Source: Mytilus galloprovincialis (lineage: Eukaryota; Mollusca; Bivalvia; Mytilida; Mytilidae). Taken from it: a stretch of 64,000 nucleotides of DNA. The notes under the pieces were generated by a model. It did not search any database, was not told where the DNA came from, and saw only the letters and a program-made list of their open reading frames with translations. The DNA is taken from NCBI RefSeq assembly GCF_965363235.1, contig NC_134839.1, positions 96,801,743 through 96,865,742 on the forward strand. The letters are read 5' to 3'. This document shows, in pieces, positions 16,051 through 34,360 of the stretch (the first letter of the stretch is position 1; each line of letters opens with the position of its first letter). The position numbers and the translations under genes are program-made.

Positions 16051-17088
16051 TGATACCACTGGTGTTCCGTATTTTTTTCTCGAAGAATACACAAAATAGG
16101 GAAAAACGGGTAGCAGTTTCTGTTACTAAAAATGCCAGTGTTGCATTACAACCAAAAAATATATGGGGTCATGCGGCAGAAATTGAGTTAAAATACAGTT
16201 AAAAAAGATCATATTTTTAATGGCTCCGACGTGCAGAAATGGAAGATATTTTCTATACTTCGTAAAATGTGAATATGATTTTCTGCAATTTTCAAACCTA
16301 ATTGGATAAGTTTTCGATTAAATGTAATTACAATCCCGCATCATCCAATCAGAAGCTGTAAAGGATTCTATTCTGAGTACCATCTTGGGGGGTAAAATGT
16401 AAACAAATAGTTCCGCATTTGTAACCGTATGGGAGAAAAACTAAATGTTTCTATTATATTTTACCTTCACTAATGATGGCAAACTAGTCCATAATGTATA
16501 ATTAGGTATTCTCTCTATTCCAACTGCTTTTTTATAGAACGTCTGATACAGAATTCCGCCGATAAAGTATGTTAAAAGTAGACATACCAATCTATAAGAA
16601 AGAAAAAAAAACCCATGACGACATTCAGTTCGAATCTATAGTTTACAATAAAACAAAATAAGGGAAACTTCAAAGCTAATCTTGTAAATAAAGCAAAGTT
16701 TAAACTTCCAGAAAGCTTAATCATGACCATTCATATATTTAGATTAATTTGATGATTACTATGTTTTTATATCTAGTGCTTAACCTACAGCGTTCTTTAT
16801 ATGTATTATTATAATTTTATCGATAAAACTTAATTGAATTGATATGAAAGTCAGGCAGGTTTCGAATTTATACCTGTTGTTGGTTATTTGTGGGAAAATT
16901 ATACAACAAATGTCAAATAAGAACATATCACAGATCTAAATAAAAGGCTTATATTTCAGTTGTATTCTCCTCATATATAACGCAGAAAACCGATTGCACA
17001 TATTTCAACCTCCTCGCATATATTAAACGTAAAAATAAACATTACCAATATTTGTGACGAGTTTAAACTTTTGAATTATAAAAAAAAA
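16051..17088. other. Non-coding stretch, nothing recognised
   Basis: AT-rich, no supported exon or repeat. Confidence 0.35.
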
Positions 17089-17208
17089 CAAGAATGTGTC
17101 CAAAGTACACGGATGCCCTACTCGAACTTTCATTTTCTATGTTCAATGGACCGTGAAATTGGGGTCATAAGTCTAATTTGGCAATAAATTTAGAAAGATC
17201 ATACCATA
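17089..17208 (+). repeat. Repeat D, left part, interrupted by the foldback element
   Basis: Contains acaagaatgtgtccaaagta, ttctatgttcaatggacc, gtgaaattggggtc and tagaaagatcatacca, ending in TA at 17207-17208. The continuation resumes after the foldback element at 21298 with TAgggaacatgtgtacta. Joining the two restores the order I recall for this common mussel repeat. Confidence 0.7.
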
Positions 17209-18362
17209 GGTATGGAACGCCACATGTGTCTTATGTGGAACTCTGATATTACTTGATATTGTTTTGTCTTTACTTAATATAGTTTTGACATTACGTAATG
17301 ATGTTTTAATATAACTCTGAGTCTCAATATGGAATAGTCATTACTTAATGATATTTAGATATTACACGATATGGTTTCGTTTTGACTTGATATAGTTTTG
17401 TCATTACTCAATATGGTTCTGTCATTACTCGGTGTGGTTTCACCATTATTTAATATGGTTGTGTCATTAGTCAATGTGGTTTTAACATTACTTGATGTGT
17501 ACATTATGTGACTTAACGTAATGTAGTTGTTCCCTTAGTGATACATGATGTGGTTTTGTTATTTCGTAATGATGATTTGTCTATTTTCTTTAAATGGTTT
17601 TAACATTACGTAATGATGTTTTAAATTTGACGATTCTACACTACTTGATGTGTTTGTTTCATTATTTGATGTGGTTTTGTCATTCTTTGATGTGGTCCTG
17701 TCATTTTTTGATGTGGTTATCCCATTACTTGATGAGGTAAAACCACGTGACCAATTCGGAAAAACCTATTTTGTTCTATTTTTAGATAAATTTCCATGTT
17801 GTATGTGCCTTGAATGATCTAATTAGTGTTCAAATTCAAATTCGGGTTTCTGTTTGAGTTAAACTTTGAGTTAGTTTTCGAATTCAAGTCATGCTTAGAA
17901 ACAAAATTTTAGTTAGCATTGAGTTTCGAGTCACATTTAAAGGCAGAGTTCTAGTTACAACTTTGAATTTGAGTCACTTCTTGAGGTAGAGTTTGAGTAA
18001 GATTCGAATTTAAGTCTCATTTAGATTAATTAAGATTTCGAGTTGAAATTCGAGCTATTATATATGTCTTTTTGAGTTCGTAATTAAATGTTCTATCGCG
18101 GAACAACGGTTTTTGCTCGGGCTTCCGAAAAGAGGGCTCCTGGATATGCGTACTAAATAAACAAATGTTGCAGTATATATATACAAAACGCAACATAGGA
18201 GTTGAAATAAAGTTAGATGTGGTGTGATTGCCAATGAGACAACTATCCACCAGAGTTTAAATGCAGTGGATGTAAGACATCATATAAAGGCAATCGTACA
18301 GCATTCAACACTCCGTATAGTCAGCTACAAAAGGCCACTATGTACTATGTGAAAAAAAAATT
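17209..18362 (+). repeat. Left inverted arm of the foldback element
   Basis: In order: a unique end with tatggaacgccaca and ttatgtggaactctgatatt; a tandem array of 21-bp units (about 17243-17745, cattacttgatgtggtttt-like); a unique block with gaggtaaaaccacgtgac; a second degenerate array with gagtt/gagtc motifs (17825-18060); a unique block with gttctatcgcggaacaa; and an R1 piece from about 18215. Confidence 0.75.
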
Positions 18363-20118
18363 ATTTTTTAACAGATTTCACTATGTCGTTTGTGTAGTGT
18401 GCTTTGAATGGTTATCGCCATAGTTAAAGTTTGAATTAAAGTTCGAGTGGTTGTTCAGAGTTATTTGGTATGAAAAAGGGGAACGGCAGATAATAATAAA
18501 AAAAAAAAAAAATCCTAAAAAATTTACAGTATTTCGGACATAATTGGGATATCCCCAAACCACTTGGTCCTGTTATTTGATCCGAAGTTCTCAAATAGAA
18601 GCAGTATTATAATAAATTTGTAAAATAGTCCAAGGAACACTGTGTCTCGCCTACTATTGCTGCTTTCAGTATAAAAGCGTAATGTTGATCGGCTGTACAT
18701 TCATTGGTCAAAAAAATAAAAAAAAAAATATTTTTCTGTAGATGCTTTTTCTAGATATTGAGGAAAAACTCCTATACAAGTTTTAAAACACTTCATGGAG
18801 GTAATAAATGTATCATGTCAAAACAGTTTAATTCGGTTTTATTTAACTAAAACAAACCTGTATGGTTTTCAACAATGAGTAAAACCCATACCCCATAGTA
18901 AGCTATAAAAGGTCCCGAAATGACGCCACTTTCGACGACGTTGTTGTGTCTTACTGACGCTACATTGATGTCGCAGGCTGGACACAAATCAAAAACTAAT
19001 ACTTTTTTCTTAACAAACGAGACACTTCAAATCAACTCACACTTAAGTCACAGGAAAATCGGGGGAGGGGGATCGGACTAAGCGACAAAGCATCAATACT
19101 ATAAAATAAGAATTCTCCGATATTTTTTTTAGCGTTAATGATCATTTGAACATACATACGAATATCAATCTTTTACTTTTAATAAATTGTATTCTCTGAT
19201 CTACCTCGCACTATTTGAAAAATAAACTTTTTGGAATATCTGTTTCACATCTGACGACGAACATGTTCCAGTTGTCGTAACCATAATACCTTCATCTTTT
19301 ACTCGAATGTGAACTTCCAAATAAAACCAAATCACCGGTTTTGAAATTTCGCGAATAACACGATGGGTGCCACACGTTGAGCAGAATCTCCTTACTTTCC
19401 ATGCGGAACCTGAGATCACCCCGATGGATTTAGATTACCCAGGCGTACCGATCTATTGAGTCAGTCAATTGAAACTGTTTTTTAAGCCACCACAACTTTA
19501 CCGCAACTGACAGTTGGGGGCATAGTGTTTAACCTCTGTCCGTCCGTCCGTCTTTCCGTCCCATTATGGGTATATAGTTATTCCGCATAACTCCTCAAAC
19601 AGTTTGAATCCTAGTAAGTTTTCTCTTTAGTGTCTGTTTGTACATATATTGAAGTTGTGCTGCATGTGGTCAGGGTTTAATTTTTTATTAATATGTGCTC
19701 TTTTAGGAGAAAGTTGATCTTTTTGGGGAAATTTACTTGCATAAGTAGGGCGTTTCCAGATAACTCCTCCTACAGTTTGAATGCTAGGAATTTATCACTC
19801 AGCTAGTTGTTTGTACATGTATTGAAGGTGTGCATGTGGTCAGGGTTTTTATCTTTTTATTATTTTTCCTCTTTTGGGAGAAAAATTGAACTTTGTCCTT
19901 TTTGTGTGTAAGCTTTTAAAAGAGTGGAGTGCGGGGGCATCACTTTATCTAGTTACAGTCTGATGTTCGAATCGCTCATATACATGTTAAACTCCGCCAC
20001 ATGCACTTTCTTTATGTACCTGCCCCAAGTCAGGAGCATGCAGTTCAATTGTTGTCGTTGTACATACATATGTGTCATATTTGTTTTTTGTAAAATACAC
20101 CGTTAGTTTTTTCGTTTG
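18363..20118. other. Spacer of the foldback element
   Basis: Holds an R1 fragment near 18885-18920 (aacccataccccatagtaag), a family B 3' fragment at about 19215-19440, and a locally duplicated repeat at about 19500-19920. In the last, blocks with taactcctc, acagtttgaat, tgtttgtacat and catgtggtcagggttt occur twice. An R1 piece begins near 19925. No transposase or other gene was recognised. Confidence 0.5.
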
Positions 20119-21297
20119 ATTTTTTTTCACATAGTGCATGGTGGCCTTTTGTAGCTGACTATACGAAGTGTTGAAGGCTGTACGGTTGCCTACATATGAT
20201 TTCTTACATCCACTGCATTTAAACTCTGGTGAAAAGTTGTCTCATTGGCAATCACACCACATCTAACTTTACTTCAACTCCTATGTTGCGTTTTGTAAAC
20301 TGCAACATTTGTTTATTTGGTACGCATATCTCGGAGCCCTCTTTTCGGAATCCCGAGCAAAAGCCCTTGTTCCGCGATAGAACATTTAATTACGAACTCA
20401 AAAAGACATATAAAATAGCTCGATTTTCAACTCGAAATCTTAATTAATCTAAATGAGACTTAAATTCGAATCTTACTCAAACTCTACCCCAAGAAGTGAC
20501 TCAAATTTAAAGTTGTAACTAGAACTCTGCCTTTAAATGTGACTCGAAACTCAATGCTAACTAGAACTTTGTTTCTAAGCATGACTTGAATTCGAAAACT
20601 AACTCAAAGTTTAACTCAAACAGTAATACGAATTTAATTCTTTTGAACACTAATTATATGGATGGCCACACGCATTCAAGGCACATACAACATGGAAAAA
20701 TAGAACAGGTTTTTCCGAATTGGTCACGTGGTTTTACCTCATCAAGTAATGGGATAACCACATCAAAGAATGACAGGACCACATCAAAGAATTACAAGAC
20801 CACATCAAATAATGAAACAGACTCATCAAGTAGTGTAAAATCGTCAAATTTTGAAACATCATTACGTAATGTTAACACCATATAAAGAATAGATAAATCA
20901 TCATTACGAAATAACAAAACCACATTAGGTAATGAAACAACTACAATACGTTAAGTCATGTACACATTAAGTAATGTTTAAACCACATTTAATATTAATG
21001 TCACCATATTAAATAATGGTGAAACCACATCGAGTAATGACAAAACCATATTGAGCAATGACAAAACTATATGAAGTCAATACGAAACCATATCGTGTAA
21101 TATCGAAATATCATTTAGTAATGACAAGGAGGTTATATAAATTCCTTGGTAATGACTATTCCATATTGAGTTATATTAAAACATCATTACGTAATGTCAA
21201 AACCATATTAAGTAAAGAAAAAATATCATTAAGTAATAATAAAATAACATAAAATAATATCAGAGTTCCACATAAGACAGCTGTGGCGTTCCATACT
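20119..21297 (-). repeat. Right inverted arm of the foldback element
   Basis: Reverse complement of the left arm in the same block order, diverged by substitutions and small indels. The R1 piece at its inner end continues further inward (to about 19925) than on the left side, so the R1 copy is longer here. Open frames at 20229, 20586 and 21058 are incidental to the array. Confidence 0.75.
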
Positions 21298-21511
21298 TAG
21301 GGAACATGTGTACTAAGTTTCAAGTTGATTGGACTTCAACTTCATCAAAATCTACCTTGACCAAAAACTTTAACCTGAAACTCGCACTTTCAATTTCTAT
21401 GTTCAGTGGACTGTGAAATTGGGATAAAAACTTTAACCTGAACGAACGGACGCACAGTCCAGAAAACATAATGGCCCTCTACTATCGGAGGTGGGGCATA
21501 AAAATGAATTT
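21298..21511 (+). repeat. Repeat D, right part
   Basis: Starts with TAgggaacatgtgtacta, continues through ttcaagttgattggacttca and aactttaacctgaa, and ends near ggaggtggggcataaaa. It is the second half of the repeat split at 17208. It also contains a second short copy of the block ttctatgttcagtggact. Confidence 0.65.
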
Positions 21512-21830
21512 ATTTGATATTTTTTAGATTTCATTATTTGATAATTTACTGCTTATAGAAAACTACCGTACTTACACAATGATAAGAATGGACCCAGCCG
21601 ACAGTAATGATGGTGTAAACGGACATGCATATTTACTTGTTAAGGTCATCAGCTGAAAGAAAACAAATATATTCAAAGTAAAAAAAAACAAACTACAATT
21701 GTTTATCAAATACTTTTAATAAAAAAAAAACTTTAAATCTCCTCATCAAAGCCTGAAAATAAAGGCTTTTTTTTATTCTCTCACTTTGAAGTATTTTAAG
21801 TCTCAAAGTTGCATGTATGTATGATACGAT

Positions 21831-22092
21831 GCTTTTTGTCCGCAATTTGCTTTTTGTCCGATAATTTTGCTTTTTGTCCAACACTTTTGCTTTTTGTCCG
21901 TTGCTTTTTGTCCGTTTTGCTTTTTGTCCGATAATTTTGCTTTTTGTCCGACACTTTTGCTTTTTGTCCGTTGCTTTTTGTCCGTTTTGCTTTTTGTCCG
22001 ATAATTTTGCTTTTTGTCCGACACGTTTGCTTTTTGTCCGTTGCTTTTGGTCCGTTTTGCTTTTTGTCCGCTGATTTTGCTTTATGTCCAAT
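21831..22092 (+). repeat. Minisatellite of a 12-bp motif in higher-order array
   Basis: About 15 copies of GCTTTTTGTCCG (few with one change) are separated by linkers that recur in the order ataatttt, acactttt, tt, tttt. This gives a higher-order period of about 70 bp. The open frames here (lysine- and glutamine-rich peptides on the minus strand) are artefacts of the repeat. A second array in opposite orientation is at 33573-33815. Confidence 0.9.
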
Positions 22093-22368
22093 ATAAAAAC
22101 GTGTATAGTTTTGCAGGTTTTATTTTCAACTTCGAAAAATCATCATTAGGGTATCTTATTTAAAAAGAAATATGTCTGATTACCTCACCTACCAACCAAG
22201 ATGGCCAACATGACTGAAATAGAACATACGGGGTAAAATTAAAGTTTTGTCTATTATTTTGAAAACCATTAAAAAGAGAGAAAATCTGACAACAGCAGGA
22301 TGTTGAGCTTTACCAAATGTCAAAACTGTCAGATGACGTCCGAAATTGGTTTCCATTCTTTAACTATA

Positions 22369-24041
22369 ATTCGCCCCAAACCAATGTTATGGAACTTAAA
22401 CGCAATGCTTATTACCACACATTCCAGATCAAGTTTGAATTTTGATGGCGTCACTTTTACTGCTCTAGAGTTTGGAAATGGAAAAACTGCTGAACTTTTT
22501 ATATTCGTTCTTTAACTGCAGTTTGCCTTAAAAAAAAATGGCATGCAGCTTATACGCAATTAGTATACCATAAAACACAGGTCAAGTATGAATTTGTATG
22601 GCCTCACTTTTCCTCTTATGCCCTATACAAATGGGGAAAATACTGACTTTATCGTTTGTGTTTCTTAACTTAATATAAAAAAGAAGATGTGGTATGATTG
22701 CCAATGAGACAACTCTCCACATGAGACTGAATGACACAGGAATTAACAACAATAGGTCACCGTACGGCCTTCAACAATGAGCAAAGCCCATACCGCATAG
22801 TCAGCTATAAAAGGCCTCGAAATGACAATGTAAAACAATTCAAACGAGAAAACTAACGGCCTTAAGCAAATTTTTTGAAACTTATACACAATACTTATTA
22901 CAACATAAGTTAGATCAAGTACAAATGTGGGTAGTGTCACTTTTGTCGTTATCAAGTTATGTCCCTTTCTAAAGTAATATGCGAGAGGGGGCATTATCTG
23001 TGTTCCATGGACTCATTTCCCATTTTAATATAGGATTAATTGCCCTAAAATGACAAATTGTTTTGCCTACTATCTTGCAAATTATAATAGATACAGAAAA
23101 ACTTAATGGTGATCAGCAAGATCAGTTCTACAAATGAGACAACATAATCGAAGTCGTTAATCGACTCCTTAATACAGATAATGTCCATTGATGATGATTT
23201 TGACCATTTTTTTTTGGCGGGGGTTGGGGGGGGGGTGGGGGGGGGGGGGGGGTTACCTTATATCTTGGATTGTAAATAACAAGAAAACCTAAGGTCTAAT
23301 TTTTAATCATTGTAACAAAATTCAACTGATAAATATTAATATTTTTACAAACGTAGATTTTATTTGTTTAATTTTTAATGTTTTTAAATTGGCATTTTTA
23401 TGGGACATAGTGCATTTTTGAAAGAATCTACATGAACTTTTTCCATCTTAAAATTTAGCAGGAAAAACGCACGGTGACCCTATTGTATCTATTGATATTC
23501 TCAAAGCATTTTCTAAAAGCTATCTTCTCGCATTTTGTTTTTCAATTCTATAACTTAGCTTCTGGTCACATAATGCTGTTTTTCTCCGTATAATCCATAC
23601 AAATACCGCACTGAACTTAAGTACGTCCATTATTCATTTTGCATTATTCAAAATTCAATAATGAATAATGAAATAGTTCATTATTCACTATTCAACGTTA
23701 AATGTTGAATAATGAAAAATAAAATATTTTAGATTTCAGTATTCATATTGAAATGTGAATAATGAAATAGAATTAGATTATTTGACTGTGACACTATATC
23801 CCGTATTTCATAATTCGTCATTTTCGTATGATCTAACTAATTTTCAAATTAAATAATATACAATTTTGTAAGAAATAAATCAAAACACTATGTGAAATAA
23901 TGCCGGATCTTTTTAATTTATTTATTTTGTTTCGGGGGATAAACTAGTGGGTTTTCCTAACTTTTTTTTAACAGAAATTCCTTGGTTTGATGTATGGACG
24001 ACTTGAATACCAAAACATATATAAAAATTAAAATACTAAAC
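22369..24041 (+). repeat. Tandem triplication, copy 1
   Basis: A unit of 1,673 bp beginning attcgccccaaaccaatg. Inside are two related A/T-rich blocks, an R1 copy (22679-22862), a poly-G tract with a T interruption (23218-23252) and a 3' part rich in cattattc/gaataatg motifs. Copies are nearly identical apart from homopolymer length and a few substitutions. The small open frames repeated in each copy are incidental. Confidence 0.95.
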
Positions 24042-25716
24042 ATTCGCCCCAAACCAATGTTATGGAACTTAAACGCAATGCTTATTACCACACATTCCAG
24101 ATCAAGTTTGAATTTTGATGGCGTCACTTTTACTGCTCTAGAGTTTGGAAATGGAAAAACTGCTGAACTTTTTATATTCGTTCTTTAACTGCAGTTTGCC
24201 TTAAAAAAAAATGGCATGCAGCTTATACGCAATTAGTATACCATAAAACACAGGTCAAGTATGAATTTGTATGGCCTCACTTTTCCTCTTATGCCCTATA
24301 CAAATGGGGAAAATACTGACTTTATCGTTTGTGTTTCTTAACTTAATATAAAAAAAGAAGATGTGGTATGATTGCCAATGAGACAACTCTCCACATGAGA
24401 CTGAATGACACAGGAATTAACAACAATAGGTCACCGTACGGCCTTCAACAATGAGCAAAGCCCATACCGCATAGTCAGCTATAAAAGGCCTCGAAATGAC
24501 AATGTAAAACAATTCAAACGAGAAAACTAACGGCCTTAAGCAAATTTTTTGAAACTTATACACAATACTTATTACAACATAAGTTAGATCAAGTACAAAT
24601 GTGGGTAGTGTCACTTTTGTCGTTATCAAGTTATGTCCCTTTCTAAAGTAATATGCGAGAGGGGGCATTATCTGTGTTCCATGGACTCATTTCCCATTTT
24701 AATATAGGATTAATTGCCCTAAAATGACAAATTGTTTTGCCTACTATCTTGCAAATTATAATAGATACAGAAAAACTTAATGGTGATCAGCAAGATCAGT
24801 TCTACAAATGAGACAACATAATCGAAGTCGTTAATCGACTCCTTAATACAGATAATGTCCATTGATGATGATTTTGACCATTTTTTTTTGGCGGGGGTTG
24901 GGGGGGGGGGGGGTGGGGGGGGGGGGGTTACCTTATATCTTGGATTGTAAATAACAAGAAAACCTAAGGTCTAATTTTTAATCATTGTAACAAAATTCAA
25001 CTGATAAATATTAATATTTTTACAAACGTAGATTTTATTTGTTTAATTTTTAATGTTTTTAAATTGGCATTTTTATGGGACATAGTGCATTTTTGAAAGA
25101 ATCTACATGAACTTTTTCCATCTTAAAATTTAGCAGGAAAAACGCACGGTGACCCTATTGTATCTATTGATATTCTCAAAGCATTTTCTAAAAGCTATCT
25201 TCTCGCATTTTGTTTTTCAATTCTATAACTTAGCTTCTGGTCACATAATGCTGTTTTTCTCCGTATAATCCATACAAATACCGCACTGAACTTAAGTACG
25301 TCCATTATTCATTTTGCATTATTCAAAATTCAATAATGAATAATGAAATAGTTCATTATTCACTATTCAACGTTAAATGTTGAATAATGAAAAATAAAAT
25401 ATTTTAGATTTCAGTATTCATATTGAAATGTGAATAATGAAATAGAATTAGATTATTTGACTGTGACACTATATCCCGTATTTCATAATTCGTCATTTTC
25501 GTATGATCTAACTAATTTTCAAATTAAATAATATACAATTTTGTAAGAAATAAATCAAAACACTATGTGAAATAATGCCGGATCTTTTTAATTTATTTAT
25601 TTTGTTTCGGGGGATAAACTAGTGGGTTTTCCTAACTTTTTTTTAACAGAAATTCCTTGGTTTGATGTATGGACGACTTGAATACCAAAACATATATAAA
25701 AATTAAAATACTAAAC
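24042..25716 (+). repeat. Tandem triplication, copy 2
   Basis: A unit of 1,675 bp in direct orientation with copy 1. The R1 core begins near 24353 and has one more A before gaagatg than copy 1. The poly-G tract is longer and arranged differently. Confidence 0.95.
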
Positions 25717-27394
25717 ATTCGCCCCAAACCAATGTTATGGAACTTAAACGCAATGCTTATTACCACACATTCCAGATCAAGTTTGAATTTTGATGGCGTC
25801 ACTTTTACTGCTCTAGAGTTTGGAAATGGAAAAACTGCTGAACTTTTTATATTCGTTCTTTAACTGCAGTTTGCCTTAAAAAAAAATGGCATGCAGCTTA
25901 TACGCAATTAGTATACCATAAAACACAGGTCAAGTATGAATTTGTATGGCCTCACTTTTCCTCTTATGCCCTATACAAATGGGGAAAATACTGACTTTAT
26001 CGTTTGTGTTTCTTAACTTAATATAAAAAAGAAGATGTGGTATGATTGCCAATGAGACAACTCTCCACATGAGACTGAATGACACAGGAATTAACAACAA
26101 TAGGTCACCGTACGGCCTTCAACAATGAGCAAAGCCCATACCGCATAGTCAGCTATAAAAGGCCTCGAAATGACAATGTAAAACAATTCAAACGAGAAAA
26201 CTAACGGCCTTAAGCAAATTTTTTGAAACTTATACACAATACTTATTACAACATAAGTTAGATCAAGTACAAATGTGGGTAGTGTCACTTTTGTCGTTAT
26301 CAAGTTATGTCCCTTTCTAAAGTAATATGCGAGAGGGGGCATTATCTGTGTTCCATGGACTCATTTCCCATTTTAATATAGGATTAATTGCCCTAAAATG
26401 ACAAATTGTTTTGCCTACTATCTTGCAAATTATAATAGATACAGAAAAACTTAATGGTGATCAGCAAGATCAGTTCTACAAATGAGACAACATAATCGAA
26501 GTCGTTAATCGACTCCTTAATACAGATAATGTCCATTGATGATGATTTTGACCATTTTTTTTTGGCGGGGGTTGGGGGGGGGGGGTGGGGGGGGGGGGTG
26601 GGTTACCTTATATCTTGGATTGTAAATAACAAGAAAACCTAAGGTCTAATTTTTAATCATTGTAACAAAATTCAACTGATAAATATTAATATTTTTACAA
26701 ACGTAGATTTTATTTGTTTAATTTTTAATGTTTTTAAATTGGCATTTTTATGGGACATAGTGCATTTTTGAAAGAATCTACATGAACTTTTTCCATCTTA
26801 AAATTTAGCAGGAAAAACGCACGGTGACCCTATTGTATCTATTGATATTCTCAAAGCATTTTCTAAAAGCTATCTTCTCGCATTTTGTTTTTCAATTCTA
26901 TAACTTAGCTTCTGGTCACATAATGCTGTTTTTCTCCGTATAATCCATACAAATACCGCACTGAACTTAAGTACGTCCATTATTCATTTTGCATTATTCA
27001 AAATTCAATAATGAATAATGAAACAGTTCATTATTCACTATTCAACGTTAAATGTTGAATAATGAAAAATAAAATATTTTAGATTTCAGTATTCATATTG
27101 AAATGTGAATAATGAAATAGAATTAGATTATTTGACTGTGACACTATATCCCGTATTTCATAATTCGTCATTTTCGTATGATCTAACTAATTTTCAAATT
27201 AAATAATATACAATTTTGTAAGAAATAAATCAAAACACTATGTGAAATAATGCCGGATCTTTTTAATTTATTTATTTTGTTTCGGGGGATAAACTAGTGG
27301 GTTTTCCTAACTTTTTTTTAACAGAAATTCCTTGGTTTGATGTATGGACGACTTGAATACCAAAACATATATAAAAATTAAAATACTAAACATT
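25717..27394 (+). repeat. Tandem triplication, copy 3
   Basis: Third direct copy, ending at ctaaacatt, where the sequence changes to gtctttttta instead of cgcccc. It has a private substitution in gaaacagttc (27020-27030; copies 1 and 2 have gaaatagttc) and a private T in the poly-G tract. Its last ~435 bases also form the outer part of the left arm of the inverted structure at 26958-29035. Confidence 0.95.
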
Positions 27395-29035
27395 GTCTTT
27401 TTTATTTTAGCTATAACATGTCGATTGTGCCGCAATGACCATTAGAGGGGTTACGGAGATTTGAATGCCAAAATACGCGTGAAATTAAGAAATAGCCAAT
27501 TTTGAATACTGAAATGGATATTTTGAATAATGGAATGGACTGCTGCGACCCTTCAGCCCCTAATAACAGATTATACCTTATCACTCATTCGAAAGCTAAC
27601 GTATTGCTACCTTATACGTCATTCAAAAGCGAACCAACAGAGAAACAAGAGATAAACATGTATACAGCCTATAGCTATACAAAGTGGAATAAAATGGTTA
27701 CAGACAGTATGTTCCGCATTAACCATTAGAGGGGTTACGGAGGACGTAAATTCCAAAATGCGCGTATTTTTTTTGGTAAAATACTTCGTGTTGAAAAAAA
27801 AGACTTTTTTAAAAATTTATTTACATTAATTTCCGGACCTATATGGCCAGTCTAGCTATGAAAATACGGAGAGTCAAACAGTAAATAGGCCATAAAACAT
27901 GTAAAAAATAATCTCCATGTTCTTATTTACCGTATTTGAAGGCTAAATTAGTACTCAGCTGTCTAAAATGAATTTTATTGCACTATAACTTTCATATCCA
28001 CCGGGTCCAAAATACGAAACCAAACTCCTTACTGTGTATTGCTACCTTATACGTCAATCAAAAGCGTTCCAACAGAGAAACAAGAGGTATATAGCCTATA
28101 GCTATACAAAGAGGAATAAAATTGTTATAAACAGTATGTCCCGCAATGACCATTAGAGGTGCCAAAATACACGTTGTTAAAACAGTTTTGTTACTCTATC
28201 AAGGTTTCAAATGATGTATTAAGGTTTCTTGAATTAGAGGCTGAAAGGTCGCAGCAGTCCATTCCATTATTCAAAATAAGCTATGTCTTTTAATAGTCAC
28301 ATTCATTTCGATATTTAGGTCATTCGTTTCTCCTCTAAAAGGCGACGAGGAACACACTGACTACATACCTTTTGCTCCTCTATTAATAAGCTTTCGAATG
28401 AGGTATAAGGTACAAGTGTAAATAGGGGTTGAAGGGCCGCAGCAACCATTCTATTATTCAAGTTATCCGATTCATTATTAAAAATTGGCTATTTCTTAAT
28501 TTTCACGCGTATTTCGGCATTTTGGTCCTCCGTAACCCCTCTAATGGTCATTGCTGTACAAATAGCATGTCATATCTATAATCAAGGGATGAGGAATAGC
28601 AAAGGTCCAGTGAAAATAATAAAAGACAACGTGAAGTTTTTGAGTCTTTTTTTATATTTATGGTATTCAGGTCGTCCATACATTAAACCAAGAAACTTCT
28701 GTTAAAAATAGTTAGGGAATCCCTCTAGTTATTCCTCCGAAACTAGATAAATAAACAAAGTTAAAAATTTCAAAGAGTGTTTTGATTTTTTGTCTGATAT
28801 TAATTTGAATATTTGTAAGATCAAAATTACGAATTCTGTAATACGGGATATAGTGTCACAGTCAAAAAATATTATTCTATTTCATTATTCACTTTTCAAC
28901 TTGAATACTGAAATGAAAACTAGTTCATTATTCATTATTCATCACTTAACGTATAGTGCTTAATAAACTATTTCATTATTCTTTATTGAATTTTGAATAA
29001 TGGAAAATGAATAATGGACGTACTTCAGCGCTGTC
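26958..29035. mobile_element. Second foldback-like inverted-repeat structure
   Basis: The left arm (about 26958-27598) is mirrored by the right arm (about 28388-29035). Outer ends share gtacgtccattattcat and its complement. Inner ends share cattcgaaagct and its complement. Further in, caatgaccattagaggggtt pairs with aacccctctaatggtcattg. The spacer (27599-28387) has its own direct repeat of a block with attgctaccttatacgtca (27604 and 28033) and ccattagagg motifs. No transposase frame is present. Confidence 0.65.
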
Positions 29036-30866
29036 ATACAAATTGTGTCATTTTGTCACAACCTGTAACTTGCGAAAAATGCTCGGTGACCTACATTGTA
29101 TCATATTTATTAAATTTTTGAACATTACACAGTTCATATATACATTTTTGAACTACGTTTTGGCAAATTCTATCATTTTTAATCTAAACTTCCATACCAC
29201 CTTAAAGAAGATTTTCATCTATCTTGTTTTAAGTTTTGTCATATATTATAGAAAATTATAATAGATTAAGATACACTTTAAATCACAAAAATGATCAGCA
29301 AGTCAAGATCTACTAACAAATCAAATGGTGTCGACAAAGTTAAGTAGACTGTGAATCTTTATAGAAGTAATTGCAATTAAATGAGGATTTTTTTTATCCT
29401 CTTTTGTGTTTTGAGCAAAACTAAACAAGATAGAAGGAATCTAAACAGCACATGATCAGCAATACAAGATCAACAAAACAGATTTTGTCATGAATTATAT
29501 TCTTGTGTACAATGTTGGAGAGTGTCCTTTGTTGAATATGCACATAGACCCAGGAGATCACAAAGGCTATTTAGAGCCTTTAGTTTATTATTATTAGAAC
29601 TATGCATAGTTGGTCAAAAATGACTGTTAAGACTAATGTCGAATACTTTACGCTTGATAGATTTTTGGAACATATGTGAGGGACAAGGGTTATTTGAACG
29701 GACGCTTGTAGACTGTATAATTATTTACCCTCTACAGTATACCAAATAGTCCACAAATCCCCAAAAGGGACCTTTTAATGATAGGCCATGTCAAGGGAGA
29801 TATAAAGCAACAAACGCCCAGCAGGATCGATGCATTTGTCTTAAACATCTCCGACATTGATTCCGCGTGGCTTTCAAATCGACACGAGTATACATTGGTG
29901 TTCATGTAAAACCTTTGGGGCTATATCAGTTTCATGGAAATTAACAAAGAGCATGGCAACCTTTCCTTGGTGATGTTTTAATGGCTGTCCGGCGTATTAA
30001 AAAAATATCTGTTAACCAATAAAATAAAATATCTTATGTGTACCAAAAGCCGTCAGCGATGGTCACACAGACAATTTGCTACCTTCGTGGACCAAAGTCA
30101 GACTTTTCGCGGGATCCTATTAAACATCTAGTGGTGTCACTACATGTACCATGTGCTGTAGAGATTTCGTTGCACAACATGACAGAAACATTCTTTGTTA
30201 GGACTTTTATAGATTATCATTTTGAATATAGATTTTGTTTTTGAAAAAGCAAGTGTTGGACTCACTCTTTTATTGGCACTTATTTCATGTTAGCTGTCAT
30301 TTTTTAAATGTACTTATCTGAGACCAGGAGTGCATTCCAGCGGCTTTCTTTCGTTTACTTTTGCGTACATTTTATACAGACCAGTATTTTTTTGTAATTG
30401 TTTCACCAATCTTAGCTGCATGTAACATCTAGAACACTTAGAACAGCAAAACAAAATTTAGATTTCAGAAATAAATAGCATTCAGCCATCAACGAATAGC
30501 TTTTCGAGAGATGTTTTCGTTAAAGTATAAATCCATTATTTTTGTGCAATTTTAAGTCTTGGCAATCATACCACATCTTCTTTTTTATATAAACGACCAA
30601 AAAAAAGATAAACAGCACATTACGTAAAGTATTAAGTATTACCTATAGTATTTTATAACCTTCATTGGTAGTAGTTCATATATATTTCTGCTGTTATTTT
30701 TGGATATAAGTTATTGTCCTGAATAAACATCTTTATGCGTTTGTGTGTTTTTCCGCATTCGTTTCAGTTTTTATCATGAAAATTTCTTCTATTAACCAAG
30801 ACAAAACTTTAAATTCGGCCGTTATAAATGTTTTCGCCAGAAATCCATGCTAAACTAAAAACTAGC
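29036..30866. other. Non-coding stretch upstream of the Penelope-like remnant
   Basis: AT-rich, with an aattataatagatta block and gatcagcaag motif near 29250-29310 shared with the triplicated unit. An R1 end fragment (ggcaatcataccacatcttc) lies at about 30560-30580. Open frames at 29007-29261 and 30038-30244 show no known features. No host gene supported. Confidence 0.4.
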
Positions 30867-32359
30867 CAAGGAATTTGTTTTTGTCCCGGCTGATATAGAC
30901 GCTAATAATATCATTATTGTTTGATGTAAATTTTACAATGAGGTTCTGCAATAGGAAATCACGAATTCACCAACATTCCAACAGACTTCATTTTTAGAAA
31001 ACGACATCTGTAACAATCACAAACTTTTAGCTACATAACAACCAAATACAATGAAAGTCCCAACTATGTACTGGCTTCCAAAGCTACACAAAACACATTA
31101 CAAGTATAGATTTATTTCATCTTCAAGCCATTGTTGCATTTCTAAATTGTCTATTCTACTTACAGATACACTTGGTACAATCAAAAACCTGATAATAAAT
31201 TGTTCAAATAAGGCCTTTGAAAATAGTGGAATTAATTACTTTTGGAGTGTCAAAAACTCGTTGGAAGTACTTGATAAACTGCATGCATATATTGGTGATT
31301 TTGAATCTGTTCAAAGTTATGATTTTTTTACCCTATATACCACTTTGCCTCATATTCATATTAAGAAAAAAAATCACATCCCTAAATAATTGGGCATTTA
31401 AAAAGTCAGAATGCCAATACATATGTTCAAACTCTTTTCGGTCATTTTTTAGTAGCAACAAACAAATTAACTATGTCAATTGGACATGCTTTGATACTAT
31501 ATTTCCGCTTGAATTTTTACTTGATAACATTTTTGTTCGCTTTGGAGATTCCCTATATCGTCAAGTTATTGGAATTCCAATGGAGACTAACTGTGCACCA
31601 CTTATTGCGGACCTGTTTTTGTATTGTTACGAGTTACTAACTATGACTAAAATCAGCAAATACCCATCGAAACAACATTTGATACAAAAATTTTACAATA
31701 CTTTTAGATTTTTGGATGATATATTGGCTCTCAATAATGACGACTTCAGTATGTATACTAAAGAAATTTATCCTGTTGAACTTACTTTAAATATAGCTTA
31801 TACTAACAATGACCAATGTCCTTTCCTCGATCGTGATATCTATATCATTAAAGGGAAGCTTAATACAAAAATTTATGATAAAAGAGATGAATTTTCACTT
31901 CCTATCGTTAATTATTCATTTTTAGATGGCTACGTTTCCTTGTCACCATCTTATGGTGTTTATATATCTCAACTTGCACGATTCGCTCGTGTATGTATTG
32001 ACGTATTAGATTTTAGCGAGAGAAATTTATGTATTACTGAAAAATTATTACACCAGGGTTTTCGATATCACAAACTAGTCAAAACATTTACTAAATTTAT
32101 CATCGGTACAAGGAAATAATTCGTAAATATAACTCAACATGCAGATATCTTATACGTTCAGGTATTTCACATCCAATGTTTTATGGTAATATTCTTTACA
32201 AAGCACAAAAATGTCAGTATTCACCTCAAAAGCTAACAAAACCTTTAAACAGACTTATTAAGAAGGGATAATAGTTACGATACTGTTGTCAGGTCATTAA
32301 AGATTTCATATTTTGGCTTTAATATTGATTCACTTATAGGGTCTTTGCATCGGATTTAA
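30867..32359 (+). pseudogene. Penelope-like element reverse transcriptase, frameshifted
   Basis: Starting near KEFVFVPADI and continuing through MYWLPKLHK, FFTLYTTLP, GIPMETNCAPLIADLFLYCY, FRFLDDI, YDKRDEFSLPIVN and YGVYISQLARFARVC, the translation follows the order of a Penelope-like RT. FLDD occupies the catalytic YxDD-type box. The reading frame is broken by a TGA near 30930, a shift in the A-run near 31370, a lost base near 32095 and another shift at about 32268. The final frame ends at TAA 32357. No GIY-YIG endonuclease was seen in the part that remains. It is a dead copy; assignment rests on motifs and remembered bivalve relatives. Confidence 0.8.
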
Positions 32360-32972
32360 ACACATTTATTCTAAAACCAGTTGTTGGCATGTTCTTCTCA
32401 TATGTTTCATGATGGTATAATACTAAACCCCTTACAGGAGGGATTGTACCTGATATTCATATGATGAAGACATAATCTTTCAATCAGTTTAATTGAGGTC
32501 TGGAGCTGGCATGTCAGTAACTGCTAGTAGTCTGTTGTTATTTATGTATAATTGTCATTTTGTTTATATTTTTTTCTTTCATATTCTGACATCGGACTCG
32601 GACATCTTAAACTGAGTTTTACTGTGCGTATTGTTGTGGTTAGAGGTATAGGGGTAGGGTTTAGATCTAAAAAAATCATGTTTAACCCCGCCGCAATTTT
32701 GCGCCTGTCCCAAGTCAGGAGCCCCTGGCCTTTGTTAGTCTGGTATGCTTTTTAATTTTAGTTTCTTTTGTATAATTCAGAGTTTAGTATGACGTCCATT
32801 ATCACTGAACTAGTATGCATATTTGTTTAGGGGCCAGCTGAAGGACGCCTCCGGGTGCCGGAGTTTCTCGTTACATTGAAGACCCATTGGTGGGCTTCGG
32901 CTGTTGTCTGCTCTATGGTCGAGGTTGTTGTCGCTTTGACTCATTCCCCATTTCCATTCTCAATTTTATTTA
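32360..32972 (+). repeat. 3' untranslated tail of the Penelope-like element
   Basis: Conserved blocks include ggttagaggtataggggta, cgcctgtcccaagtcaggag, gggccagctgaaggacgcct and ccatttccattctcaatttt. Truncated copies of the last part occur at 3118-3194 and 41864-41972, as expected for 5'-truncated insertions. Confidence 0.7.
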
Positions 32973-33214
32973 TTATCTAATAGCAACACATTTAATCATT
33001 ATATTATTATCAAACATCACATAAAAATTGTGTAGTAGTTTTTAAGTAAACAAGTTAGACAAGTGGTTTAAACGAGTTACATTTTGTAGTTAAGTCGTTA
33101 AAACAAGTTAGCTGTGTTGTTAGTTAAGTCGTTATAACAAGTAAGCTTACTCGCTATAATGACTTTAAAATAAAACTTCAATCAAATTAAAACTATAAAA
33201 TGCTAATTTACCTT
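32973..33214. other. AT-rich stretch, nothing recognised
   Basis: Contains short repeated ttaagtcgtta and acaagtta words around 33060-33140 but no clear element. Confidence 0.35.
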
Positions 33215-33580
33215 AAAATTGAAATATCAGGGGCAGCAACCCCAAAACGCGTTGTCTAATGTAACTGAAAAATCTCGGGCATATAGATTATGACTTGATG
33301 AATATTTTTATCCCAGAACTAAATGCTTTAGTTGTAGAGATATAAGCTAAAATCTACATTTTACCACAATGTTCTATTTTTAGACATGACGGCCATCTTG
33401 ATTTTTTGGGCGTGCTCATTGGATACCTTTTTTAAACTATATACCCTAAGGATGATTGTGGCCATATTTGCTTTAATTTTGCCATTAGTTTCAGATTTTC
33501 TGAAAGTTATCGACGACGACGGATGCCAAGTGATGAAAAAAGCTCACTTAACCCTCTGGTCCAGGTGAGCTAAAAAGGCA
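33215..33580 (+). repeat. Repeat C, right half
   Basis: Matches 15200-15592 in blocks aggggcagcaacc, ggccatcttgatttttt, gattgtggccatatttg, gctcactt and ccaggtgagctaaaaa. The minisatellite starts directly after it. Confidence 0.7.
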
Positions 33581-33815
33581 AAACGGACAAAAAGCAAAAG
33601 TGTCGGACAAAAAGCAAAATTATCGGACAAAAAGCAAAACGGACAAAAAGCAACGGACAAAAAGCAAAAGTGTCGGACAAAAAGCGAAAATATCGGACAA
33701 AAAGCGAAACGAACAAAAAGCAACGGACAAAAAGTAAAATTGTCGGACAAAAAGCAAAATTATCGGACAAAAAGCAAAAGCGGACAAAAAGCAAATTGCG
33801 GACAAAAAGCACCGT
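33573..33815 (-). repeat. Minisatellite of the same 12-bp motif, opposite orientation
   Basis: About 13 copies of CGGACAAAAAGC (complement of GCTTTTTGTCCG) with the same linker order and ~70-bp higher-order period as the array at 21831. The outer flank (aaattgcggacaaaaagcac followed by cgtatcat) is the complement of the flank of the other array, so both derive from one element. Confidence 0.9.
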
Positions 33816-34360
33816 ATCATATGTAAGAACTTCAATACCCAGAGTATTGTATCAGCTGGAAGATAATTACTCCGTATGAGGTGGCTGTTGGAATGATTAT
33901 TGCTAAACAGAAAAAGAAAGGTCATTTTGGGGAAAATTGAAATCATTATTAGGGTATAATTCATCTTATTTTTACTTGATTTCCAAAATTAAAGTAAAAA
34001 CAGTTGAGCGACACAGGCTCTTGAGAGCCTCTAGTTATTTTTTTAACTGAACTAATACTATTTTAAGAGGTTGTGACGTTATTTTTATTTTGTAAGTTCC
34101 CCTCTACATTGTTATGCTGGTGTGCTAGAAACATAATTGTTCAAAAGTGGTAGCTTTCAGGAACTAATATCATGCTCAGAGAGGAACACGATGTTAGTTA
34201 CTGTACAGGTCTATCATTTTACTCTATTTGCTGTTAAATTAAAGGTAGTATTGATTTAAAGGCTTTTTATGTGAAGTTGGAATCTTTTTTGCGTGATTTT
34301 GTGATCTCTTACACCATATCATTTACATACATATGTTGACTCTGTGATCTCTCCTTGTAC
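33816..34360. other. Non-coding stretch with inverted start of repeat C
   Basis: At 34005-34040 the sequence gagcgacacaggctcttgag is the reverse complement of the beginning of repeat C. Together with 33215-33580 this gives a rearranged C element around the minisatellite. Further 3' exons of the MRH gene were looked for here without success. Confidence 0.45.

Follow-up and report, generated by a model that had tools for sequence, protein, structure and literature searches.

The DNA analysed here is a window of 64,000 nucleotides from the Mytilus galloprovincialis genome (C2:96801743-96865742; genome size 1.385 Gb), and we focused our attention on a foldback element of approximately 4.1 kb located at window positions 17211-21295. 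The element follows the structure of the foldback class, namely long inverted arms with tandem repeats placed around an unrelated middle (Table 1). Its arms, of approximately 1.15 kb each (17211-18359 and 20120-21295), are reverse complements; blastn aligned 17204-18359 with 21302-20120 at 86% identity over 1,217 columns (E = 0), and the repeat search gave the same blocks. Both arms share one block order, as a preliminary description of the locus had proposed; the blocks are a 28-bp end, a 21-bp minisatellite and a unique inner block, and the minisatellites were recovered with Tandem Repeats Finder (TRF) and by autocorrelation at lag 21 (0.54 and 0.57 for the two arms against a mean of 0.31-0.32). 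The ends read TATGG...CCATA; the inverted ends of that description are real, except that the leading GG and AG it counted belong to the flank. Also as described there, no transposase gene lies inside, the longest stop-to-stop frame anywhere in the element being 106 amino acids (aa). In the left inner arm, positions 18205-18336 are a piece of an interspersed repeat present elsewhere in the window, suggesting arm growth through inverted duplication of adjacent internal sequence; each arm would then consist of an outer array of degenerate 21-bp repeats and an inverted copy of that sequence.

The element belongs to a large family. A blastn search with 221 bp spanning the left end gave 72 matches (40 of the 682 first-look candidates were scored), of which 39 are long when the window itself is set aside. 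Homology begins exactly at window position 17211 in 26 of these 39, and in the remaining 13 its start is shifted by 1-10 bases leftward or 1 base rightward. The exact 28-mer TATGGAACGCCACAGCTGTCTTATGTGG occurs 214 times genome-wide (100 forward, 114 reverse), against no occurrence of its reversed control in the same genome; other copies with the same ends, on which the transposon reading had been staked, are therefore abundant. Among 100 of these 214 ends, those listed and all on C1-C4, adjacent ends less than 10 kb apart form 15 +/- pairs, no -/+ pair and one same-strand pair. The middle (18400-20100 was searched) recurs, at full length or in part, in all 39 other copies scored, their main matches being 84-91% and their secondary pieces 78-90% identical, and small derivatives are present as well, such as L081 with 380 bp. 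In an alignment of arms, the two of the window copy agree in 93% of aligned columns, while their identity to arms of other copies averages 88% and reaches 96%, so that recent homogenisation of this copy is not strongly indicated; within-element arm identity in the other nine copies aligned ranges from 55% to 95%. The foldback is a real, high-copy, non-autonomous transposon.

Two copies on C3, one of 8.6 kb at 34.23 Mb (L120) and one of 3.5 kb at 34.78 Mb (L112/L113), have identical letters beside their ends as judged by eye. Lying approximately 0.5 Mb apart, they derive from one insertion event, apparently either as a segmental duplicate or as an allele placed twice in the assembly.

The six nucleotides adjoining the window copy are CATAGG on the left and CTTAGG on the right (5/6), and across the family this corresponds to a target-site duplication (TSD) of 6 bp. 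In a first set of 17 elements, comprising the window copy, the 12 of 20 fetched foldback copies having both ends, and four partner elements described below (L094-L097), agreement between the flanks peaks only at length 6, at 0.77 against 0.30 in shuffled pairings; 7 of the 17 pairs are identical over 6 bp and 12 have at most one mismatch. For the 13 foldback copies by themselves the value at length 6 is 0.72 against 0.30. The eight fetched copies left out had no usable end pair (L064, L066, L067, L070, L075, L078, L080 and L082). A second set of 10 was picked from 15 end-paired copies by ends and spacing with the flanks unseen, using 160 bp per end, and omits L073, which was already in the first set, L120 and three further end-paired copies. 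In this set eight pairs are exact over 6 bp and one agrees at 5/6 (0.88, which none of 5000 shuffles attained, against 0.30), and lengths 2-5 and 7-10 are not significantly different from shuffled pairs. L120, which stands outside both counts, has the flanks GAATAT and TAATAT (5/6).

The target of the insertion is an older interspersed repeat, repeat D, whose two halves flank the element. The joined flanks, with one 6-mer kept, align across the junction to four stretches in three loci (Table 1); the junction letters are CATAGG in both L067 copies and CATAAG in L055, and L097 has a 2-bp insertion before TAGGG. The preliminary description was right in taking the flanks for halves of one repeat and the empty site for readable, and wrong in reading the duplication as TA: the duplication is 6 bp and the TA is part of these 6-mers. 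As the TA and the 6-bp models give the same joined string, the empty site alone cannot separate them; the family copies do. L055 (CALHGQ010000637.1) is a contig binned as an uncultured bacterium, and because it carries this animal repeat it is probably host contamination. As for viral contigs, the 15-mer end was found in 54 stretches, which were taken as chance because blastn of the element region gave nothing better than E 0.044, and the repeat-D 27-mer was found in none; blastn against phages and plasmids gave no match.

Passages of PMC10045372 describe IS3EU families with TA..TA termini and usually a 6-bp TSD, and passages of PMC12730594 give TAYGG..CCRTA as the ends of certain fungal members. 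These published termini and duplications led us to search the source genome with the Pfam profile rva_4, which gave 154 matches there and none in 14 control genomes. The profile represents an integrase-core family. Four of the ten rva_4 loci returned (L089, L090, L091 and L093) display the end TATGGAACGCC; refetched with their flanks as L094-L097, they are complete elements of 3.1-4.6 kb (Table 1). Exact 6-bp duplications flank L094 (AAGCAC), L095 (CATATA) and L096 (TGAATA), and L097 has CGATTC/CGATTT (5/6). L095-L097 are one family and L094 is another. The rva_4 domain was confirmed by hmmscan in L095 (E 2.5e-72) and L094 (E 4.4e-72), whose proteins are 60% identical over 405 aa. The open frame of L095, of 473 aa, has weak similarity to integrase chains of human T-lymphotropic virus 2 (E 5e-5) and contains a candidate D-D-E triad at D230, D287 and E320 in the numbering of that frame, the second and third being separated by 32 residues.

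There are 76 L095-type and 51 L094-type ends in the genome (control 0 in both cases). Measured against the rva_4 matches listed among the 154, 13 of the 76 L095-type ends lie within 6 kb of a match (8 of 71 after removal by hand of the ends of the elements that defined the pattern), and so do 12 of the 51 L094-type ends (10 of 49 after the same removal) and none of the 100 listed foldback ends, the nearest being at 38.6 kb. Such a pattern is expected where a non-autonomous family coexists with autonomous families. A tblastn search with the L095 transposase at 1e-3 gave no match in the 20 foldback loci L064-L083 or in the 8.6-kb copy L120, in which the longest listed frame is 132 aa.

Other arrangements of the partner families were also seen. 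On C7, two +/- pairs of L095-type ends (71333319-71335630 and 71335635-71337911) lie end to end with 4 bp between them. Frames of rva_4, mostly of approximately 436 aa, occur in inverted pairs, as at C1:105983600 and 105998805 and in 11 similar cases (one hmmscan-confirmed); in these 12 pairs the adjoining 330 bp are 98-99% identical and the spacing is 14.5-15.5 kb, and a 13th pair has 90-91% identity over the adjoining 330 bp and a spacing of 8.6 kb. The inverted pairs appear to be large elements of recent origin, each arm of which carries a transposase gene.

Taken together, the foldback is very probably a non-autonomous DNA transposon of the IS3EU type, moved in trans by a transposase encoded elsewhere in the genome. 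The ends and the duplication give good support for placing it in IS3EU as a non-autonomous family: TA..TA termini, also in the form of the fungal pattern, occur both in the window element and at the family end, and the usual 6-bp TSD is found in the family, with 5/6 in the window copy. The foldback encodes no integrase-like DDD/E transposase, so it could be at most a non-autonomous member. As far as passages of PMC10045372, PMC12730594 and PMC10853768 describe them, IS3EU and GingerRoot elements resemble the foldback in the TA..TA or TATGG..CCATA termini and the 6-bp TSD, and the likeness extends to the partner elements of the source genome, which encode an integrase-type DDE protein; the foldback differs in having no gene and in its 1.15-kb arms with outer 21-bp minisatellites. 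To judge from the shared ends and TSD length, the mover is very probably one of the rva_4 families of the same genome. A DDD/E integrase-like transposase from such an element would bind the ends of the foldback, excise it and integrate it at cuts staggered by 6 bp, such that 6-bp duplications would arise.

Several points weigh against this assignment. No copy with foldback arms plus a transposase gene was found, so that the partner is assigned by ends and TSD length alone. The rva_4 elements are in turn tied to IS3EU only by termini, duplication and integrase similarity. The four partners were selected because their loci, among the ten returned, showed the end; among the remaining six, the right end of one (L088/L098) has diverged, mismatching at 8 of 27 positions, and five have no matching end within the stretch examined. 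Such stretches yielded neither the terminal inverted repeats (TIRs) of L084-L088 nor the left end of L098, and no end could be recognised in L099. The repeat units of L094 and L095 resemble the foldback unit no more than shuffled letters do. With regard to the TSD, 5 of the 13 foldback pairs fall below 5/6 as anchored (L068, L069, L077, L079 and L083), although the L083 pair becomes 6/6 once a mutated last base is allowed for by hand; the L108/L109 pair of the second set matches at 0/6; and the 13 foldback copies also give p 0.0495 at length 7, which is not repeated over the 17 or in the set of 10.

The usual home of foldbacks is among Mutator-type or P/Galileo-type elements, and the overall architecture of long arms with tandem repeats would suit such an origin, which we nevertheless consider improbable. 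P and Galileo elements have TSDs of 7-8 bp, and agreement at lengths 7 and 8 is not above shuffles over the 17 elements or in the set of 10. According to passages of PMC4079207, Mutator seems to account for most foldbacks, though not for all, and Tetris/DAIBAM and the Mutator foldbacks are non-autonomous and have the same layout of flanking, tandem-repeat and inner domains; they differ in a TSD of 8-10 bp, and for Tetris no autonomous partner was found. In our copies agreement at lengths 8, 9 and 10 stays at the level of shuffled pairs, and the termini and co-resident partners fit IS3EU; MULE (Mutator-like element), P or THAP-domain proteins were not searched for. A different group with a 6-bp TSD, such as Polinton/Maverick, has as poor a chance: the duplication and the long TIRs agree with it, but the ends read TATGG and do not start with AG as those of Polintons do, the foldback has no long open frame, and partners of 3.1-4.6 kb leave no room for the Polinton gene set. 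Even less can be said for a Tc1/mariner-type foldback, the mover implied by the TA duplication of the preliminary description. A TA is indeed found near both ends of the window copy (17207-17208 and 21298-21299), but at that left position only 2 of the 17 copies have it (the window and L095), and at length 2 the flanks agree less often than shuffled pairs do (0.18 against 0.25 over the 17; 0.15 against 0.24 over the 10), whereas at length 6 they agree far more often. The 6-bp duplications of many different sequences refute it, and the co-resident elements, whose ends are almost the same, carry genes for an integrase-like rva_4 protein; no dedicated search for Tc1/mariner elements with these ends was made. 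Finally, a local inverted duplication or palindromic amplification could yield the arms alone, and the arms of the window copy are closer to each other than to the average arm of other copies, but the element has sharp boundaries and target duplications, its ends are dispersed by the hundreds, and homologues of the empty site exist, all of which leaves this reading with practically no credit and agrees with the mobile insertion first proposed.

A length of 21 bp corresponds to two turns of B-DNA. The arms of the partners are minisatellites too, beginning just inside the common terminus, with a period of 21 bp and 12-17 copies per arm in L094-L097; TRF gave higher-order periods of 41 and 62 bp in the arms of L095-L097, and lag 41 or 42 ranked first by autocorrelation in 2 of 13 arms. 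Using 21-bp unit consensuses picked by eye from the TRF output, a relationship of the foldback unit to the L094 or the L095 unit was rejected (10-12 of 21 positions, p 0.32-0.92 by shuffling), and the L094 and L095 units resemble each other no more closely than shuffled letters. The unit of L098, a more distant rva_4 copy with a 21-bp array of approximately 21 units, does resemble that of the foldback (15-16 of 21, p 0.0014 and 0 of 5000 shuffles). In three cases, then, the 21-bp period is common across arms where the unit sequence is not. PMC3688188 describes for Galileo, a Drosophila element of the P superfamily, very long arms with tandem repeats as in the foldback, these repeats containing extra binding sites for the THAP domain of the transposase. 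By this analogy, the likeliest role of the 21-bp arrays would be to offer the transposase a series of contact sites along one helical face, even though Galileo differs in termini, transposase family and duplication length. A broader proposal, which we put forward tentatively and regard as rather doubtful, is that IS3EU-like families with a near-identical 27-bp terminus keep helical phase and not sequence, their arms being a phased scaffold for integrase-type transposases, and that the foldback lost the gene and enlarged the scaffold. Against such a role of phased arrays, TRF found units of 20, 50 and 70 bp in a neighbouring 12-kb element, so that 21 bp is not universal for minisatellite arms. 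The TU elements of sea urchin have, as in the foldback, arms formed by outer short tandem repeats and a unique inner domain, and differ in the unit and the duplication length. Foldbacks in sea urchin are mentioned in passages of PMC4079207.

Table 1. Features of the foldback element and its target in the window, empty-site homologues of repeat D, and partner elements.
Feature	Sequence	Coordinates	Strand	Remarks
Left half of older interspersed repeat (repeat D), insertion target	Window	17087..17204	+	Joined-flank alignment
Left TSD CATAGG	Window	17205..17210	+	6-bp duplication established across family
Left 28-bp terminus	Window	17211..17238	+	Family 28-mer end with 2 differences
Left outer arm, degenerate 21-bp minisatellite	Window	17244..17738	+	Limits of TRF rows; lag-21 autocorrelation
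Left inner arm	Window	17739..18359	+	Without 21-bp periodicity
Middle, non-coding	Window	18360..20119	+	Recurs in other foldback copies
Right inner arm	Window	20120..20755	-	Repeat search and blastn
Right outer arm, 21-bp minisatellite	Window	20756..21259	-	Limits of TRF rows; lag-21 autocorrelation
Right 28-bp terminus	Window	21268..21295	-	Exact 28-mer family end; genome C2:96823010-96823037
Right TSD CTTAGG	Window	21296..21301	+	1 mismatch to left TSD
Right half of repeat D	Window	21302..21505	+	Joined-flank alignment
Empty-site homologue	L097	4073-4277		86%
Empty-site homologue	L067	6702-6433		76%
Empty-site homologue	L067	7274-7126		81%
Empty-site homologue, stray copy in a bacterial metagenome-assembled genome	L055			73%
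Partner element	L094	310-3414		Terminus 1/27 off foldback consensus
Partner element	L095	355-3790		Terminus 3/27 off foldback consensus
Partner element	L096	1076-5692		Terminus 3/27 off foldback consensus
Partner element	L097	348-3739		Terminus 3-4/27 off foldback consensus

The 12-kb element adjoins the foldback at window positions 21820-33821 (12,002 bp). It has inverted ends TATGATACGRTGCTTTTTGTCCGC, with TA..TA, and arms of TGCTTTTTGTCCG minisatellite units that are 95% complementary over 213 bp. Its flanks, TGTATG and TGTAAG (5/6), suggest a 6-bp duplication from this one copy, and its ends occur 30 times exactly in the genome, two of them its own (control 0). Inside it, positions 22369-27394 contain a unit of approximately 1.675 kb in three tandem copies of 99.8% identity, and positions 31039-32119 contain two overlapping frames, with no Pfam match at E 0.001, which we take to resemble a broken Penelope-like reverse transcriptase. 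Further along the window, an open frame at 39141-40448 matches the major royal jelly protein family (Pfam PF03022, E 5.4e-38).

In the open-access literature, within the portions of text covered, the terms IS3EU and foldback co-occur in a single paper, where they stand in a table and in a reference title, and such an element is not described there; a broader open-access search found it in no title or abstract start among the small part of the matches examined. The word IS3EU is absent from the main text, as far as covered, of a survey of bivalve transposons (PMC10294476). A non-autonomous IS3EU consensus may be catalogued in Repbase, Dfam or subscription papers. On the best reading, what is new is a foldback variant of a known superfamily, IS3EU. 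Foldbacks have mostly been tied to Mutator, with P-type exceptions, and some have no known mover; here the ends, the TSD and the co-resident enzyme family point to IS3EU, such that foldback architecture seems to have evolved once more, in a superfamily unrelated to these. With hundreds of copies in the genome, the family could seed ectopic recombination, and the recurring 21-bp period offers a direct handle on what long repetitive arms do.

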